A DNA stretch of 64,000 bases from Climacium dendroides (lineage: Eukaryota; Streptophyta; Bryopsida; Hypnales; Climaciaceae). The stretch spans positions 33,359,213 to 33,423,212 of the forward strand of contig OX467084.1 in assembly GCA_950106755.1 (NCBI GenBank), read 5' to 3'. Position numbers and translations under genes: made by a program. The notes under the pieces are model-generated. The model was not told where the DNA came from, searched no databases, and saw only the letters and a program-made list of their open reading frames with translations. Position 1 is the stretch's first letter, and each line of letters starts with the position of its first letter. Below, in pieces: positions 2,738 through 26,698 of this stretch.

Positions 2738-5700
2738 TTATGAACCTCTTTGACTTTCGGGCACCCACATGCCTGGACCCCTACCAGTCTGCTCCAAACT
2801 GAAGATGAGAAACATTATCAAATCAGTGTTTTTAAAAACTACCACAGACAAGTAATAAAATCAGCTGACAAGGATTCCGTTCACAAGACAGCTCAATGAT
2901 TAGGAGGATGGCAATTGCATACGTTGGTGCTAGACGACCGAGACCTTTAAGTTCGACTCCTGTAGTTTCTTCTGTTAGACGACCGTCAATATCCACATTG
3001 TACGCTTTCCCTGGGACTCCTGGTAAACCGCGCTTCTTCAGTAGCTCCAAGTCCTTATGATGCAGTTCCCTCCCGTTCACGAGTACTCCAGTTTTGCCAT
3101 GGGAGCAATGTCGGGCCAATGGAAAGTTTAATTCCTCGATGAAGGGCTGCAAACATTTTAGCCGCTGTAAGTCCTAGGGAGCAACCATAGCACTAGACTG
3201 AAGCATGAAGGAACAAGTGTGTTGATCAGTTCACAGTTCTACTTACCGGGATCATGCCCAAACAAGGTCCACCCATGACTCCCCAGAACCCAGCTCGAAA
3301 GTCGTACCTACAAATCCCACCAGATCATGCGACTCAGATACTTTTCCAGAGTACAGATCTGGCATCTGCAACACAACATAGTTTACTAGCATTCCGTATT
3401 AATGAACTTTTACCAGTACTAATCTAGCTCACTATTCACGGGCACTCTATACAAAAGCATTTCCTCTAAACCAAAAAAAAATAGATAATAACAAACATAC
3501 TGCTATAAACTTCTTTCTCTTCAAAAGTATAGAAGGAAATCGTTCAATAGGAGAGATAAAATTCTAGGACAATTTACAGATGCTAAAACGACCTTCAACT
3601 CAGTCTAGAGTGCACAGGGTAAGAATGTAGGTCGGGGATTGGTTATGCAGCTGCATGTATTGTGACTTAACTGCAAAGTTTCAAGCGGGGATTTTACAAG
3701 TCACCACAACACAAGATGAAAGAACTTACCAGTAAGACCCCGGATGTATGCCTCCAGCATATTCCTCTGCTCTTCTCACCACATCATCAGGCACAGGATG
3801 ACCATTCACTACCACTTTCCGACGATATTGGGTCGATTTCTTGCCCTTGGTGAACTCCTTGACACTTTTTTTGAGGAAACCTTTGAGGCCTTTGAACTCG
3901 TGTCCGTCATCAAAATCGGGGGTTTCAGGAGCAGACCATGTGGTCATTCGTACAGGATTAACAGCACTTGGTCCTATTTTCAGTTTGGCCGAAGCCTTTT
4001 CTTCATCAGAATCACTGCTGGATTGCAAAAGTCTGCGATCAGGTGAGGTAATCTTTTGCTGGCGATCTTTTGAGCCGACATCCTGACTTGTGCTGGACAA
4101 TGTAGGGGAGAGCGACGTATGTGAAGGCTCACCTTGCCCTAATGGAGAAATGGCAACGATAATTTCCTTTCCACGGTTAGGTGAGCTCTGAGCTGGGCCT
4201 AAGTCACCTGAGGTATTTGGAGTTGAGGCTTTTGAGGTTTCAGATGGAATGCTCGAAACCGAAACCATATTCGACAACTTAGACCCTGAAGCAGCACGAG
4301 GGTTGTGCCGGGCAGAGGGTGGCACTGGAAGATTGGCTCCAGACTGCGTCCGAATTACCGCTCTGTCCTGAGAACCTGTTTCTCGGTTAGATCTTGTTCC
4401 TGAATATCTACCAGACGTGCCATCAGAGGAACCAAGCCGGAAAGAGGATTCAGGTGATCTATCACTTCCAGCTGGAGAAGATATTCCACTGGGTAATAGT
4501 AGGTGGTTCAAGCGAAAGCGCGAAATTTTCCAGCAAGAACCGCAGCGAAGTTTTTGTACACCTGTCTCGCTGCGACCAAGGTTCGTCGGGACCTCCAACT
4601 GCAGGTTGCAATGTCGACACCGAACATGAATACGTTCAGGTATTGAGGTATTAATTTGCAACCTAACTTTCTGCGTCTGCCCCTTCAGAGAAGAATAGGA
4701 TGGTCCTTGCATCTGTCCACCTTGATCGAAAGAAAAACTATTCATCGATTCAGGTGCCTCAGGAGGCTGAGTGAAGGTTCCTTGCAGCTCTTGCTTGTGT
4801 TGATCGGACGTTTGAATTTGGGGAGGACTTTCACTATGATTGGACTCGGGAGAACGATCAGGAGAGAAATAGGGAGAGGCACCAGCTTCGACTGGGTCAA
4901 AAGGACTACTAACCCCCACTTTATCTTGAGACATTGAATTCGCCGATCTCGTACCTGTAGGGTCATGTTCATCTTCATGATCCAACCTCTCACTGCTACC
5001 TCCTGCAGTATCTTCCCCATTTAGTTGTCCATTGTGTGAAAAGGTGGGAGATTTAAGCTCCTCAGAGTGCGGCTTTGAAACAATCTCATACTGATCAGTA
5101 TCATCCACATTGGACGAATCTTCACTAGTATCATAGTCCAGAACATCTGGGAGGCCGGGAAAAACTTGTAGATTCGAAGAGGCATCCGAGTCCTGCCGTG
5201 CACCAGCGTGTGCCTTCGACAAGTGCTCCAGTTGCGGCTGAACACCTCCTATCGCTGGGTTTGACGAAAGAAAACGAGGAGGTGAAAGAGGTTTCCTCCT
5301 CGTTGGCGGCGACTGAGAAGGAGAATACTCTCGCTTATCCAGCACTGCGCTATGTTCGTCCTCGTCGTCAAATGTGTCCTCACTGACAATGAACTCCTTC
5401 TTGTGCAGTGCCTTCAGCTCTGGAGAAATCCGCCTGACTAAGGAAACATCGCTTGCAGGTGGCAAGCCCTGTTCAGCCGCAATTACCTTCGGAGGTGACC
5501 AGTTTATTGTCTCGTTCAACTGACTAGCAATATCAGAAGATGAGGCCCTTGAAATTGACTTCAGATCAGGTGTTACCTTCTCTTCGTCCCCTCGGGTAGT
5601 CAGTGGATTGTCTCTGCTTTTCTCTTTTTCCACTGTCAACTTCAAATTATGTAAAATTCTTCTCTCGTCCTCTGATACATTGGACACGGATGTGGGCTCC

Positions 5701-7595
5701 GCAGGGAACTTACCTACTGCTTTAACTTCGTTTTCTAAGCTCCATCTTGTGCCAGAATTGAGAGCAGAATTACCAGCGTAAAGTTCATTCTCGTGAGGTC
5801 TATCACTGGCGACCACACCATCTGAGCGCTGTCGCCGATGTAGACCAACGATTTCCTCCTTAGTTGGACCAGTGGATGGGCCAGGCTCTACTGTGTCATG
5901 CCGAAGACCAAAATCAGTATTTCCAGTCCCCGTGGATTCATCTCCTTGGGATCTGTTTCTACCCCTGGTGAGAAATCCTTGTGAATTACGTATTGGGAAT
6001 TTACTTGACGCTCCCAGTCCGGGCGCTTGTCTCTCTTTCACCTTGTAAAGCGGTCCATCATTCTGCAATCGCAACGCAGCAAGTGCTTTAGTGGGTGAAA
6101 ATGATGTACGATCATCTTCGGCTTCAGGTGTCCCCTGGTGCTCTCCGGCTCTGTTGTTTGCTCCCTCACTCGTCATGTCTGCAGATGGTCGCTGGTGACG
6201 AGCCGCTTCAGCGACCAAATCTGCAGTGGGTAACTTTTGACGAGTATTGACGTCCTCACTCGTCGTGTCTGGAGGAGGTTGCCTAGAGCGCGCAGCCTCA
6301 GCGACTAAATTTGCAGGTGCTGACCTCTGACGAATAGTAACGGCGTCACTTGTCATGTCTGAAGGTGGTCGTCTGTAGTGCGCAGACTCAGCAACCGAAG
6401 CTGCTGGTGGCGACTTCTGACGAGTACTGATGTTCTCCCTCGTCATGTCTGCAGATGGTAGTATATAGCGACCAGACTCATCCACCGAATCTGCAGATGA
6501 TGACTTCTGACGAGTATAGACGTTCACGTAAGCGGGTGTGTTTCTTGGTCGCATGTCTACAAGCCCGTCCTTGTCAGTCGATGCATCACTTATGGCTGAC
6601 GGATTCCTAATCTGATCAATCGGGGGAAAACGGATACTGCGGTACATGTCATTCGATTTCTTACCAGAATGGGCTTCCTCTAGATGTGCAGGGCCAGAAA
6701 CCTTGGTTTGTAGCACGTTTAATGGGGCTTCTCTCCCACGAAGAAGATCCACCTCCCTACTAGGACTTGCTAAAGAGTCACGCGTTCCAAATCTCTGGTG
6801 ATCCTGTCCTGCTCGGGAACCATTGTCAGCATATGTATTCGTATTGCTTGGCACAGGAGGAGGAGGAGGAGGAGGAGGAGGTCCAGGAGAAAAACTACTC
6901 TGGGGGTGTAAGTGGCTTGGTGATCTCTTTCCGATGTCCGCTGGACTGAATCTAGGGTTTCCACTGCTATTTCTGAAATCACCTGGATCGTCTAAACTTG
7001 CCTGTCTCGATGTCAGGTCAAGTGCGATTGATTTGGAGGGCAATTTTCTACCATCAATACCACCAGTATCTGCATGGACAGGAGGAGCAGCCCTGTTCAG
7101 CTGCTGTACACGGGCTGTCGTCCTTCTAGCCCCAGAACCATCAGAGCTTGCATGTTTTGCTGCAAAACCATGATAAACAACAGATACACAAAATCTCAAC
7201 GATCAAAACCAGGGACCGAAAAAGTCAAAAGAAACAAAAGGCGTCTGTCCCAAATCTTATTAGGAGAAATTTGATATTTGATGCTCAGTGAGAATTAGAT
7301 GATGTAAATCAATAATCATACCGATACTTCGAAACCGGTCCACCTCTTCCCAGCCCGAATCACTTTTGCACATACAAAACTTACCTAAATCCCACACACC
7401 GCGGTCAAACGTGATTCATCCACTACAAATTTAACCTCATATACTGTTTCCCAAAGTATAGTAGTGAAACATACCTCTCAGGACAGTGGAACAGTTCCCA
7501 CACTTGTATAAAGGGGTCCCTGGAGGAGGCTCTTGAAGAAGTGCAAGGCACTTAGGGCAACGTACAATCCGAGAGGCTTTTTCCATTGTAGCCAT
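2738..7595 (-). CDS. DUF3133 zinc-ribbon protein (EDR4-like / 'extra-large G-like'), five coding exons
   Basis: Coding exons on the minus strand are 7475-7595, 3730-7159, 3247-3307, 2923-3146 and 2738-2798, all with GT-AG introns. They total 3897 bases, or 1298 residues. Exon 1 encodes an N-terminal zinc ribbon (C13-x2-C16 ... C32-x2-C35) typical of plant EDR4/DUF3133 proteins. Residues ~41-880 are low-complexity and Ser/Pro-rich, with a polyproline run and four 30-residue repeats (~250-370). A second CxxC...CxxC zinc ribbon (the DUF3133 domain) lies at ~882-920. The conserved C-terminal module (VVVNGHPVPDD, GSYWYDFRAGFWGVMGG, FVNGRELH-like, LGRLAPT, GMWVP) spans exons 2 to 5 and closely matches the family represented by Arabidopsis At3g61670. 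The start at 7595 fits the family N-terminus; a second ATG lies three codons in. EDR4 itself is linked to membrane traffic and powdery mildew resistance; the role of this paralogue type is unknown. The protein is longer than most relatives. Confidence 0.9.
6172..6531 (-). repeat. Four exact-period 90 bp repeats inside the DUF3133 coding exon
   Basis: Units begin at 6172, 6262, 6352 and 6442 on the plus strand, with exactly 90-base spacing. Each encodes 30 residues of the pattern TRQKSxxAxxVxExxxxxxP followed by SxDMTSE-like text. The exact multiple of three keeps the frame open. The units have diverged by substitution only, with no indels, which suggests selection for frame. Confidence 0.88.
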
Positions 7596-16048: not shown

Positions 16049-16600
16049 GTGAGTTCATCCTTGAAATTTTGCATAAAAAGGAAAGGTCTTGCACAATATA
16101 GTTCATCCTTGAATGACTATTCTTAATTTTCTTGAAGTTTATGTAGAACAAGTGTCCATCTTTGGAATTTTGTGTGAAAAGAAAAGTCGTTTTGCATATA
16201 GTAGTTCAACCTCCAAGAACTACTCTTGATTTTTTCTAAGCAAGTGTCATCCTCAGAATTGTGTATGAAAAGGGAAGCCGTTTTGCATATAGTAGTTCAA
16301 CCTCCAATAACTACCCTTGATTTTTTCTAAGCATGTGTCATCCTCGGAATTGTGTGTGAAAAAAGAAGGTCATGTACAATAACTTAGTTCAACCTCCAAT
16401 GATTGTTCTTGTGTTTTTAGAAGCAAGTGTCATCCTTGAAATTCTATGTGAAAAGAAAAGGTCATGTACAATAGCTTAGTTCAACCTCCAATGATTGCTC
16501 TCGTATTTTTAGAAACAAGTATCCACCCTTAGAATTTTGAGTGTAGTTCAACCTCCCATGACTGCTCATGTTCTTTCAACAAATGATTCACATTTTAATG
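16049..16600. repeat. ~92 bp tandem array derived from the interior of a TTAA-type MITE
   Basis: Six units start at about 16049, 16151, 16243, 16333, 16426 and 16518; most spacings are 90-93 bases. Each reads GTGTCATCCTCAGAATT, a GTGTGAAAAG block, TAGTTCAACCTCCAATGA and a T-rich tail. The same blocks in the same order form the middle of the complete element at 16646-16866, which begins less than 50 bases after the array. Confidence 0.85.
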
Positions 16601-17686: not shown

Positions 17687-20600
17687 TCAGCCTTCAAGGT
17701 CCATGCCATCCACGAAGTCGAAGTCCCAGTCGCCAGATCCATCGTCGCTAGAAGAATTGTCCATGGATTGCTTGCTGCAACACAAGCCACCCAACAGCAC
17801 ATTAATTCAAAAGCTCGAATATCCACTCTATCAAAGACCTTCAACTCCTGCTGGAAATTGATATGAATAGAAACATAAGAGTCGCTCAGAGAGGATGAGG
17901 TAGTAAAACATGCAGGACGGAGATAAAGAGATAGACCTAGCAGTGTTGCCAGTGTAGTGTTCAAAGCATTTCACCCGATGCTGTGTGTCTACTAAAAGTA
18001 GTGAATATGAAGATTACCTAGTGCATCGCGAACTGAAGTAGAGAACACGCTTTTGTTTCTTGTTGTAGAAGAAGTAGTTAAAGGACCATCTAAGGGCACA
18101 GAAAAGCAATTACAACATTAAGAAGTAAATCTGGATGCAGCACCGGGACTTCCCGAGAGGTCGCCCTCCCAGTACTATGCCGGCCCAAAGGCGCTTAACT
18201 TCAGAGTTCTGATGGGATCTGGTGTAGTAGCCCTGGTATGACCGCATCACAACCATTTTCATGGTTCGATATTACTTCAAAACAACCATATTCATGGTCG
18301 CCAGAGATTCAAGCAGAAGATTTGCCCAGCTTCCAAAACGTGAACCATTAACCTCAAAGTCTAGAGGACATCCCATGCATATTCACAGCGCAAATTCGAA
18401 AAGTTCTTAAATTATACATGATCACTATAAAAGTAAAAACGGTCAGAACAGACGAGACATAATACTGTCAGCTCAAAAATATTGCACGTATACGTCTGTT
18501 GGAACTCACATGCTGCCAGTGTCAGCAAAAGGATCTCCTTCAGCATCAGGCGAGTAGCTGTACACTTCACATTCCTCCAAGTTGATTACCTGATAGGCGG
18601 TGAACATGTTCATTCAGATAGAAGACGGTCGTTGCAATTATTTAAGCATGTCGATGTTCTAATAAGCGAATCACTTCCATCATTCTCAAACGGTGTTCCA
18701 CTAACCTGGTCAATGGCGCTCCAAATGCTGTCGGTCAATGTTGTTTCTTCACCAACTTCTACAGACCATATCTGTTATTCGAAATGTGTTAAAACAAACC
18801 GACCCTCCGAAAACTTGAACGTCCAGCATCGACAGACAACTTTGAATGTAGTCTAAATTCGATGATCTTATAGATTTCAAGAAGATGCTTCTTAAAATAA
18901 AACACTAGGCACGATTCTGCCAAGGATTAGGTGCAATAATCCAGTGCCAGACTTTACTCAATGGACAAACACAACTATCCAATAGATTTGGCAAGTATGT
19001 GATCCAGAAAAGAGTAGGATAAGACAAGACGTCAAAATGAGACGATTGGCAACAGTCAATTTTCTACCTTGGATGCCTCAACCAAAGATACGTCAATCTT
19101 CTGCTTTGCAGCAAGAACTCCATGTTCCTTAGTAAAGTGGTGAGGTCGCAACATACTGGTGAGTATATGGACATGAGAATATCAAAATGTTAGTCTACTC
19201 AACTTTCGCCTTTACCCAAACATGAACAAACTGATCGACAACCTGATCGATACTCTACGCAGGAAATAATAGGAAATGGAGAGACTCGAACTCTCAGCTC
19301 CTTGAGGAGCAACGGTTTTAGACCGCTTGTCAACCATTGACACCACTTCCTAATTCCTTTCAATAAAATGGGTTGCCGGCCATGTAGGCACTCACAGTAC
19401 CCATGAAAACCTAAACTAGACTAAAAACGCATAATCACAAGAACCTGAATATTAAATGCCTCCTTCGATGATTGTCGAGGAGAGCACAATGGAAAGACCA
19501 TAAAAGATACATACTTTGAATGATGCCATTACCTGAAATCGTAGTCAGGATACATATGATTCAAGGTCAGAATCAGGTGAATCAGTGTCCTGCGACTGAA
19601 AACAATTGAACAAAGGGGTGAACACAATCACAGAAAATTCAGAAGAGGGAACTAAAACTAATTAAGAGACGTGGAACCAGCTTTGACTTGCACACAAGCT
19701 AACATTGAAGGAGTCAGGAATTGACAAGCCACGGGGCTAATCTAAGAACGACTTCATCCTCATCCTTTCTTCCTTGTACGTTTGAACAACGCCACCGTCA
19801 GTCAAGCTCAATAAACAATTCTCTAACACGAGAACAATAATTCCTCATTCCCTTCAACCAAATAATGAATGTACAAGGCAGAGGAACCTCCGCGAGGATA
19901 CAAACGAATACTTAAAACTTCGGCCTTTAAGCTCTTCCACAACTTGGAAGAAAAGACACTTACCTTGCAGTATTAGAGAGCGGTCCAACGGGAGAGGTGG
20001 AGAGGTCTAACGGGGAATATGCCAACGAATCCACCACCTGTGAAAAGGTCATACAAGAGTCACTGATACATGTCCAGGTAAACAGCTTCCTTGTGGAAGC
20101 TGAATTCATTTGCAAGAACAAACAACAAAGAGAGCAGTCTAAACTTGCATCAAGTAATACAGTCAACAAAGAAATTCATCAAATCAATAAATCAGATCTA
20201 AAACATGAGATCACAGACCAAAACAAGCATAAAAAATCAACCTCTTGCTCCAAACTCCGCGACAACTTCTTATCGACTCCTGCAAGCTTGCCTGCGAAAA
20301 AACCAGCTAATTCAGTTTTCAAAAACTCACTACAACGGAAGACGCTGAGGGTTAACACGAACTCAATTCTTTATATTGTTAAAAATTCGTGATATATGAA
20401 CTCAACGGACAAAAACTCAACCGAACATACTCTCTTGCCAAAATACACTATAATTCAATCACAGAAAAATATAACAGCTATTGCAATCTAGAACCGAAAC
20501 CTCTTGACTACAAAATCGCACGCAGTGACCACACTTTAAGTGTAAAAAACGAAACCTAACTTAATCTCTTACCAAAAGACGCTACAATTTCACACAAACA

Positions 20601-20993
20601 CCGTCACAGAAAAGAAACAAACCTCCAACAACAACAACAACAACAAGGAACTGCGAGGAGACCGCTATACACCTACCAAACTAGAATTAACAAAACTGCA
20701 AGAAAAGTCTGAAAAACGTACAAGAGTATGCCTCCATGACACCTTGAATCATGCATCCTCCCACATCCACATCAGACAGAAACGAGTTTATTCTGCCACA
20801 ATAGGGATTGAAAATCAGATGAGACCACAGCATGGCAACCAAACAAAAACCTCCAACCATCTCCAATACAAAACGGCACGCAACATATAAACATAAGATT
20901 ACATACAAAACCGAGAGAAGAGGCAATCATCATGAGAATCCAAGGTGAATCCGAGGGTTACCGAGCGAGAGGCGTGTATTCGAGGAACTTCAT
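17687..20993 (-). CDS. MAF1: MAF1, repressor of RNA polymerase III transcription, ten coding exons
   Basis: Exons (minus strand): 20962-20993, 20722-20792, 20242-20291, 19964-20037, 19533-19595, 19068-19155, 18706-18771, 18510-18589, 18018-18089 and 17687-17774. All introns are GT-AG and the sum is 684 bases, giving 227 residues, close to the usual plant length. The N-terminus MKFLEYTPLARINSFL is the MAF1 signature. Later conserved segments are GVMEAYSCK with DKKLSRSLE, TLIHLILTLNHMYPDYDFS, a VINLEECEVYSYSPD block, and IWSFNYFFYNKKQKRV (the MAF1 core), followed by an acidic tail ending DWDFDFVDGMDLEG. MAF1 is a soluble regulator that binds Pol III, blocks its engagement with promoter-bound TFIIIB, and is normally controlled by phosphorylation through nutrient signalling. 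Ser-rich stretches after exon 3 could be phosphorylated, but no site is proven. Odd feature: introns 5 and 8 contain a tRNA-like and a 5S rRNA-like sequence. I am confident in the family; splice sites are inferred by eye. Confidence 0.93.
18133..18248 (-). rRNA. 5S rRNA gene or 5S-like element in MAF1 intron 8
   Basis: Read on the minus strand, the 116 bases carry 5S landmarks in order: GATGCGGTCATACC, AGATCCCATCAGAACTCTG, the box A region AAGTTAAGCGCC, ATAGTACTGGGAGGGCGACC and a terminal GGTGCTGCATCC. The fold is intact. Helix I pairs GATGC with GCATC. Helix III pairs CAGA with TCTG; typical plant 5S has CGGA with TCCG, so this is a compensatory change. Helix II also shows paired changes, and helix IV closes on a GCGA loop. 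The sequence lies within intron 8 (18090-18509), in the same direction as MAF1, with its 3' end 43 bases before the exon 9 boundary. The first TTTT (minus strand of 18102-18105) is 27 bases downstream, so Pol III termination would be late and weak. No neighbouring tandem 5S copies are present. It could be an active dispersed 5S gene, a regulatory mimic, or a retroposed copy. Confidence 0.85.
18252..18298. repeat. Pair of 14 bp palindromes just upstream of the 5S element
   Basis: ACCATTTTCATGGT (18252-18265) and ACCATATTCATGGT (18285-18298) are two near-identical interrupted palindromes 33 bases apart. On the minus strand they occupy about -4 to -50 relative to the 5S 5' end, where plant 5S genes keep their upstream control elements. 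Each could form a short RNA hairpin in the intron. An AT-rich TAATATC lies between them at about -20. Confidence 0.6.
19271..19350 (-). tRNA. tRNA-Leu(UAA)-like sequence in MAF1 intron 5
   Basis: On the minus strand the 79-base body folds as a class II tRNA. The acceptor GGAAGTG pairs with CATTTCC (one G-U), and there is a short GTC/GAC D stem with a GG-containing loop. Anticodon stem AGCGG/CCGTT encloses loop TCTAAAA; a long variable arm GCTCC-TCAA-GGAGC and a T arm GAGAG-TTCGAGT-CTCTC follow. Anticodon position 34-36 reads TAA (Leu), which agrees with the long arm. Oddities: position 33 is C instead of the near-universal T, the D loop is short, the discriminator base would be T rather than the usual A, and no T-run terminator follows closely. 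The shape resembles bacterial or organellar tRNA-Leu more than nuclear tRNA-Leu. It sits in intron 5 (19156-19532), sense to MAF1. It is probably a degenerate or mimic tRNA, though stems are well kept. Confidence 0.65.
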
Positions 20994-25765: not shown

Positions 25766-26698
25766 CAAGTCCTTAGATTTTTCTCTAATATCCAAATTAA
25801 CACTATGTTACTATCTTTAAATTTTTCTCTAATATCCAAATCAATGTCTTTCACTAATATTCAAATCAATGTCTTCCACTAATATCCAAATCAATGTCTT
25901 CCACTAATATCCAAATCAATGTCTTTCACTAATATCCAAATCAACGTCTTCTACTAATATCCAAATCAATGTCTTCCACTAATATTTAAATCAGCGTCTT
26001 TCATTAATATCCAAATCAACATCTTCTACTAATATCCAAATCAACGTCTTCCACTAATATCCAAATCAACATTTTCCACTAATATCCAAATCAACGTTTT
26101 CATTAATATCCAAATCAACATCTTTCTATCCAAATCAACGTTTTCCACTAATATCCAAATCAACGTTTTCATTAATATCCAAATCAACATCTTTCTATCC
26201 AAATCAACGTTTTCCACTAATATCTAAATCAGTGTCTTTCATTAATATCCAAATCAACATCTTTCTATCCAAATCAACATCTTCTACTAATATCCAAATC
26301 AACGTCTTTCACTGATATCCAAATCAACGTCTTTCACTAATATCCAAGTCAACGTTTTTCACTAATATCCAAATCAACATCTTTTTATCCAAATCAACGT
26401 TTTCCACTAATATCCAAATCAACGTCTTTCATTAATATCCAAATCAACGTCTTTCTATCCAAATCAATGTTTTTCACTAATATCCAAATCAATGTTTTCC
26501 ACTAATATCCAAATCAACGTTTTTCACTGATATCCAAATCAACGTCTTTCATTAATATCCAAATCAACGTTTTTCACTGATATCCAAACCAACATCTTTC
26601 TATCCAAATCAACGTCTTCCACTAATATCCAAATCAACGTTTCTCACTAATATCCAAATCAACGTCTTTCACTAATATCTAAATTAACGTCTAGCTTA
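25766..26698. repeat. Minisatellite of CTAATATCCAAATCAACGTCTT units (about 0.9 kb)
   Basis: Roughly forty units of 19-26 bases, with core TATCCAAATCAACG. The common unit is ~25 bases (TTTCACTAATATCCAAATCA); a shorter variant (CTTTCTATCCAAATCAACAT) is interspersed. The array begins at the right flank of the TTAA element and ends about 480 bases before the DUF300 start codon. Its repeated TATCCA is the core of a known plant MYB-binding sugar-response element; regulation by it here is only a possibility. Confidence 0.9.

Follow-up and report, generated by a model that had tools for sequence, protein, structure and literature searches.

MAF1 is the repressor of Pol III and lowers the production of 5S rRNA and tRNA. 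A sequence-only reading of a 64-kb stretch of the moss Climacium dendroides (the whole of the DNA analyzed here, hereafter the window) had placed a full-length, foldable 5S rRNA sequence inside an intron of MAF1 itself, and had proposed that this element could feed back on its host gene. The locus therefore raises the question of whether the MAF1 pre-mRNA senses a product of Pol III through its own intron, or whether the 5S sequence is a passenger that is discarded on splicing.

MAF1 gene structure

All nine introns of the host gene are of the GT...AG type, and the joined protein of 227 aa matches the Pfam family Maf1 (PF09174) with 195.9 bits. Among the best named relatives, protein identity is 93% to Ceratodon purpureus (M758_3G097400), 87% to Physcomitrium patens, approximately 70% to Sphagnum, and 69% to Marchantia. 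The family match confirms MAF1 as the host gene, as the sequence-only reading had it, and the identity to Ceratodon goes with moss nuclear DNA in the window. The limits of intron 8 (18509-18090) also agree with that reading. The coordinates of the gene and of the elements in its introns are collected in Table 1.

Retention of intron 8 leads to an immediate stop, read as GS-M-stop. An ATG spans the junction, with two bases from the end of exon 8 and one from the start of the intron, and a TGA follows directly at 18508-18506. Because a further exon junction lies far downstream, such a transcript would probably be subject to nonsense-mediated decay. Skipping of exon 9, which is 72 nt long, keeps the reading frame and removes the stretch WSFNYFFYNKK, of which 9 of 11 residues are invariant across 19 aligned MAF1 proteins, the window's included. 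The same 19 proteins, mostly cluster representatives, show no difference at the exon 8/9 junction. Elsewhere in the gene, two Sphagnum fallax models (P0013 and P0055) are without exon 5, directly upstream of the intron that carries a tRNA-like element described below, and two (P0009 and P0055) are without exon 7; alternative splicing of MAF1 is therefore annotated in a moss.

Two tandem arrays lie near MAF1, one with a 91-92 bp unit in 3.4 to 4.1 copies (16144-16520) and one with a 25 bp unit in 36 copies (25824-26692). Elsewhere in the window, a long ORF on the minus strand (3726-7202) contains a 90 bp tandem repeat within its coding frame and weakly resembles the EDR4 zinc ribbon, with 24.3 bits where the cut-off is 27.

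Table 1. Positions of the MAF1 gene and of its intronic elements in the window
Feature	Position	Strand	Basis or remark
MAF1 coding region, 10 exons	17687..20993	-	GT/AG boundaries and reading frame
MAF1 exons 1-5	20993-20962, 20792-20722, 20291-20242, 20037-19964, 19595-19533	-	
MAF1 exons 6-10	19155-19068, 18771-18706, 18589-18510, 18089-18018, 17774-17687	-	
tRNA-like element, sense, in MAF1 intron 5 (19532-19156)	19271..19351	-	RF01852 sub-threshold, fold
MAF1 intron 8, 420 nt	18090..18509	-	direct reading
Pair of short, similar palindromic hairpins (ACCATGAAWATGGTTGT type), shortly before the 5S start	18250..18299	-	
5S rRNA element, 118 nt, full-length, sense to MAF1	18132..18249	-	Rfam RF00001
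Variant carried by the 5S element, GGGAGGGCGACC	within 18132..18249	-	
Spacer from 5S 3' end to exon 9, 42 nt	18090..18131	-	pyrimidine tract, CCCTTAG acceptor; read directly

A full-length 5S rRNA sequence in intron 8

The Rfam 5S_rRNA model (RF00001) matches the minus strand at 18249-18132 over its entire length (1-120 of 120), with 99.2 bits and an E value of 1.9e-20. The gathering cut-off of the model is 38 bits, and this is the sole Rfam match at gathering score in the whole 64 kb. With such a score over all 120 model positions, the nesting of a full-length 5S rRNA in MAF1, in the sense direction, was read correctly and is not a chance resemblance.

The element is wholly intronic, and its 3' end lies 42 nt upstream of exon 9 and the 3' splice site. 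The branch point of intron 8 presumably falls within this spacer, so that the 5S sequence would sit directly upstream of both the branch point and the pyrimidine tract. The first TTTT starts 27 nt past the 5S 3' end, inside the pyrimidine tract. At the other end, GTTG immediately precedes the element, and TAATAT is found at about -25. The two hairpins just upstream of the 5S start form a direct repeat (two copies, 33 nt apart, 79% identical over 29 nt) that extends into the 5S start. Both hairpins are present in the fold of intron 8, one of them with a GAAA loop.

The description of the element as foldable holds for the pairing of the 5S model, in which 31 of the 34 Rfam pairs are standard, but not for energy folding, as folding of the stretch alone misses the full 5S fold. 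Its minimum free energy is -42.7 kcal/mol (z -1.26), and the standard Rfam pairs alone reach -19.6. No unusual folding energy was found for this stretch or for intron 8 as a whole, where z is -0.41 and 38 of 100 shuffles are as good.

Comparison with ordinary moss 5S rRNA

The ordinary moss 5S sequence was inferred by way of a protein database, in which short ORFs called across 5S genes were matched to the translated element; the query translation carried the frame over one lost base. Eleven proteins were found among 11 candidates, with Physcomitrium patens (P0126) and Sphagnum compactum (P0130) as the named sources. Six of these ORFs (P0121-P0126, Physcomitrium included) read MRSYQGYYTRSHQNSEVKRLWAGIVLGWVTSREVPVLHP exactly. 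The remaining five (P0127-P0131) depart from the common 5S frame; P0130 is one residue off this frame before its tail leaves it, and P0128 sits on a contig of 110,011 bases. The tails of the ORFs beyond the 5S differ, except that P0121 equals P0122. With five of the ORFs off the common frame, and with tails that vary, the translations suggest that mosses harbor stray 5S copies and that such copies are not rare.

At all of its first 27 codons the element equals the common 5S frame, with no change over approximately 62 nonsynonymous sites, which bounds its neutral divergence below approximately 4.8%. If the copy is neutral, it is therefore young. As inferred from the translated ORFs, the element is a near-canonical 5S rRNA, which would set it apart from a diverged mimic of the kind found in TFIIIA (P5SM). 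A diverged-mimic reading was considered and rejected. Seed-plant 5S has the letters GCAC/GTGC in helix II, and the GGGC/GCCT of the element had seemed compensatory, but the Physcomitrium ORF and others read the same, so these letters belong to ordinary moss 5S.

Three changes, one of them probable, distinguish the element from the inferred moss 5S. A single T, the bulge of helix IV, is lost between 18167 and 18166 (position 84 of the inferred moss 5S). In loop D, a T to C substitution at 18163 (position 88) turns GTGA into GCGA, that is, a GUGA loop into a GCGA loop. The probable third change is a C to T substitution in helix IV at 18156 (position 95), which converts a G-C pair to G-U; it is assumed, since it is synonymous in the translations, and the other two are pinned. 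A stretch of 12 nt in helix IV and loop D holds all three, and none of the 35 assigned pairs is broken. Under uniform mutation, draws of two substitutions and one deletion cluster this tightly (within 12 nt) in 2.2% of cases, leave every pair unbroken in 11%, and combine the two outcomes in 0.23%; these odds amount to a hint because they are post hoc, include one assumed change, and ignore mutation bias. In a control with the pinned changes (one substitution and one deletion), no pair was broken in 21% of draws. The helix IV changes fall in what we take to be box C of the Pol III internal promoter. The internal control region (box A, IE, box C) is thus not intact, with a 1-base deletion and a substitution in box C.

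Relation to the TFIIIA 5S mimic

The parallel drawn by the sequence-only reading was with P5SM, reportedly described in 2009 by Hammond et al. and by Fu et al. as a 5S rRNA mimic in plant TFIIIA pre-mRNA. P5SM has diverged from 5S in sequence and has kept the structure, and it occurs across land plants at a constant place in its gene. Excerpts of two papers present it as a stop-containing alternative exon of TFIIIA that is regulated by the ribosomal protein L5 (PMC4538838, PMC5972288), and an excerpt of one review describes it as a retained 5S-mimic intron (PMC6164485).

The parallel stands insofar as TFIIIA and MAF1 both control Pol III output and both have a 5S-like sequence, in sense orientation, in their pre-mRNA. 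The two elements differ in host, MAF1 as opposed to TFIIIA, and in position, as the MAF1 element is wholly intronic, with no known alternative use, whereas P5SM is an alternative exon. They also differ in divergence. The MAF1 element is near-canonical by comparison with 6 of the 11 ORFs, but for one deletion and one substitution, whereas P5SM is diverged. With respect to a stop-containing alternative stretch, retention of intron 8 would meet a stop, but the 19 aligned proteins contain no alternative junction. Since the element is wholly intronic and nearly letter-identical to ordinary moss 5S, the parallel is weaker than it looks, and the host gene and the degree of divergence argue that the element is not a member of P5SM.

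Among the matches listed in a literature search that reached few subscription papers, with excerpts from PMC12218528, PMC4538838, PMC5972288, PMC12857756, PMC6164485, PMC6739443, and PMC7865372, nothing describes a 5S element within MAF1.

A tRNA-like element in intron 5

MAF1 carries a further structured element in sense orientation, in intron 5. Its match to the tRNA-Sec model RF01852 (44.9 bits, E 6.7e-07) is just under the cut-off of 47, and it has a long variable arm and a 5-nt anticodon loop. The cloverleaf is the minimum-energy fold of this element (z -4.0; 1 of 200 shuffles as good). ARAGORN, run in its bacterial setting, calls no tRNA here. On the opposite strand, 19271-19321 (+) gives a sub-threshold match to RF04351, Plastid-psbl-rps4 (29.6 bits against a cut-off of 68), perhaps a hint that the element derives from something like a plastid tRNA-Ser.

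In the Marchantia polymorpha protein AXG93_4225s1210 (P0039), a related stretch is annotated as coding right after exon 5, and exon 6 is missing. The translated intron 5 element agrees with it at 21 of 27 residues, ungapped, so the tRNA-like element is common to a moss and a liverwort. Among proteins of about the length of P0039, a search for exonised tRNA-like copies elsewhere returned only P0039 itself.

Excerpts of a recent paper describe a tRNA-like sequence termed CPIR-1, which lies close to a "MAF1 motif" in the MAF1 introns of flowering plants (Sack et al. 2025, PMC12218528), and credit it to Akkuratov et al. 2014. The intron 5 element shares the tRNA-like fold within a MAF1 intron and is probably a homologue of CPIR-1, as judged from the description of CPIR-1 rather than from its sequence. 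A hairpin corresponding to the "MAF1 motif" was sought upstream of the element, but neither of two candidates near 19352-19430 folded better than its shuffles (z 0.17 and 0.77). CPIR-1 and the "MAF1 motif" resemble the intron 8 element in being structured, Pol III-product-like RNA in MAF1 introns; they differ in that a tRNA-like element and a hairpin are found there and a 5S here. In the main-text excerpts of PMC12218528, the term "5S rRNA" is absent and P5SM is named as a known case. That the intron 5 element is shared with a liverwort raises the odds that MAF1 reads Pol III products, without establishing it.

Origin and possible role of the intronic 5S

We favor the explanation, and consider it the probable one, that the 5S sequence is a stray copy, most simply a young one, which leaves with the spliced intron and has no specific role. 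A dispersed near-canonical moss 5S copy would have been inserted, probably recently and in sense orientation, into intron 8 and would be removed together with the intron; as a 5S pseudogene it would have at most a slight effect on the nearby 3' splice site. Its recent age, its origin by insertion, and its lack of function are what we infer from the comparison with ordinary 5S, to which a young stray copy is also expected to be nearly identical. A copy outside the rDNA array is expected to drift unless it is young or selected. Like dispersed 5S copies and pseudogenes, the element is lone, near-canonical, outside an rDNA array, and damaged in its internal promoter; unlike them, it lies in sense orientation in an intron of a Pol III repressor and keeps all of its assigned pairs. 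An excerpt on moss rDNA reports that the 5S genes of the mosses described lie inside 35S-5S units and follow a GTCG (PMC6739443), and the GTTG before the intron 8 element agrees with this at 3 of 4 letters. Against such an rDNA-unit context, the 64 kb contain no further Rfam gene and no other rRNA match.

As for traces of insertion, direct repeats in the 80 nt flanking each side of the element reach no more than 6 nt, a length matched or exceeded in 754 of 1000 shuffles. None of the retroposition marks sought, namely direct repeats and repeat copies in the window, was convincing. Intron 8 has no match longer than 24 nt to the rest of the window (best E 0.26) and no second 5S copy there. Searches of viral and genome contig collections with two 5S patterns, and of viral contigs for MAF1, returned no locus. 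The missing traces of insertion count against a stray copy, as do two further observations. The host is a Pol III repressor that already carries a tRNA-like intronic element common to Marchantia, and the three changes lie within 12 nt with 0 of 35 pairs broken (0.23% jointly, post hoc).

Two further explanations seem less likely to us than either a stray copy or a regulatory element. The 5S sequence could be a live, unlinked variant 5S gene that is transcribed by Pol III inside MAF1 and perhaps interferes with the passage of Pol II, which we regard as improbable. Its near-complete identity to moss 5S by translation, the TTTT from 27 nt downstream, the TAATAT at about -25, and the GTTG resembling the moss GTCG would suit a gene. 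Yet box C lacks one base, and no T-run terminator is found near the 3' end, the first TTTT being the one 27 nt downstream; on both grounds the element probably does not work as a 5S gene. The presence or absence of a TATA box does not settle the matter, since it was found in one moss and absent in another in the excerpted account (PMC6739443). We give still less credence to the element being part of a 5S-bearing mobile element, whether a Cassandra-like TRIM or a 5S-headed SINE. Mobile elements carrying 5S occur in plants and animals, which lends this explanation its plausibility, but the intron 8 element has no target duplication longer than 6 nt, no poly-A after it, and no second copy in the 64 kb. 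Within the window, neither terminal repeats nor a target-site duplication, as expected of a TRIM or SINE, was detected at the element.

A regulatory role is a better candidate than these two, although we hold it to be doubtful. Here the intronic 5S would be a mimic that tunes MAF1 splicing through ribosomal protein L5. When 5S is short, free L5 would be in excess and would attach to the intronic 5S, close to the intron 8 branch point, so that intron 8 would be retained, with its immediate stop and nonsense-mediated decay, or exon 9 would be skipped. MAF1 would then fall and Pol III output would rise, and plentiful 5S would soak up L5, allowing MAF1 to be spliced and Pol III to be repressed. 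This loop is coherent, and each of its steps beyond the anatomy is presumed. It draws on the sense orientation 42 nt upstream of the acceptor, on the immediate stop upon retention, and on the tRNA-like element in the same gene, common to Marchantia. All 35 of 35 assigned pairs are kept, and the changes, confined to helix IV and loop D, spare helix II and loop C, where an excerpt of a review places the L5 site on 5S (PMC6164485). In addition, L5 is a known splicing regulator through the TFIIIA 5S mimic, according to excerpts of the work on that mimic (PMC5972288, PMC4538838). Against this role, the 19 aligned MAF1 proteins (the window's included) are uniform across the exon 8/9 junction, the folding energy of intron 8 is ordinary (z -0.41, 38 of 100 shuffles as good), and a sequence this similar to ordinary 5S does not reveal selection for mimicry. 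That near-identity makes the feedback interpretation weaker than first stated; the tRNA-like element in the same gene makes it less far-fetched.

A broader proposal, which we consider unlikely and somewhat more so than the L5 loop by itself, is that MAF1 splicing is tuned by a two-channel sensor composed of a conserved tRNA-like decoy in intron 5 and a 5S decoy in intron 8, shortly before the acceptor. In this arrangement, tRNA-binding proteins and L5 (or TFIIIA) would act on their respective decoys. The 5S decoy would be kept as an RNA for 5S-binding proteins, and helix IV/box C, the part needed for ribosome docking and Pol III promotion, would be free to change.

Significance for Pol III control in mosses

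With a stray copy as the favored explanation, the locus keeps its interest through the host gene, through a sense orientation close to the acceptor, through pairs that are all kept, and through the tRNA-like element that lies three introns upstream and is common to a liverwort. Should the 5S element be restricted to one species, its presence in MAF1 would be a curiosity, a stray copy. If MAF1 in other mosses carries it as well, MAF1 would join TFIIIA as a second, independent example of a Pol III-control gene with a 5S sequence inside it, and together with the tRNA-like element this would suggest a MAF1 pre-mRNA that reads out both main products of Pol III.
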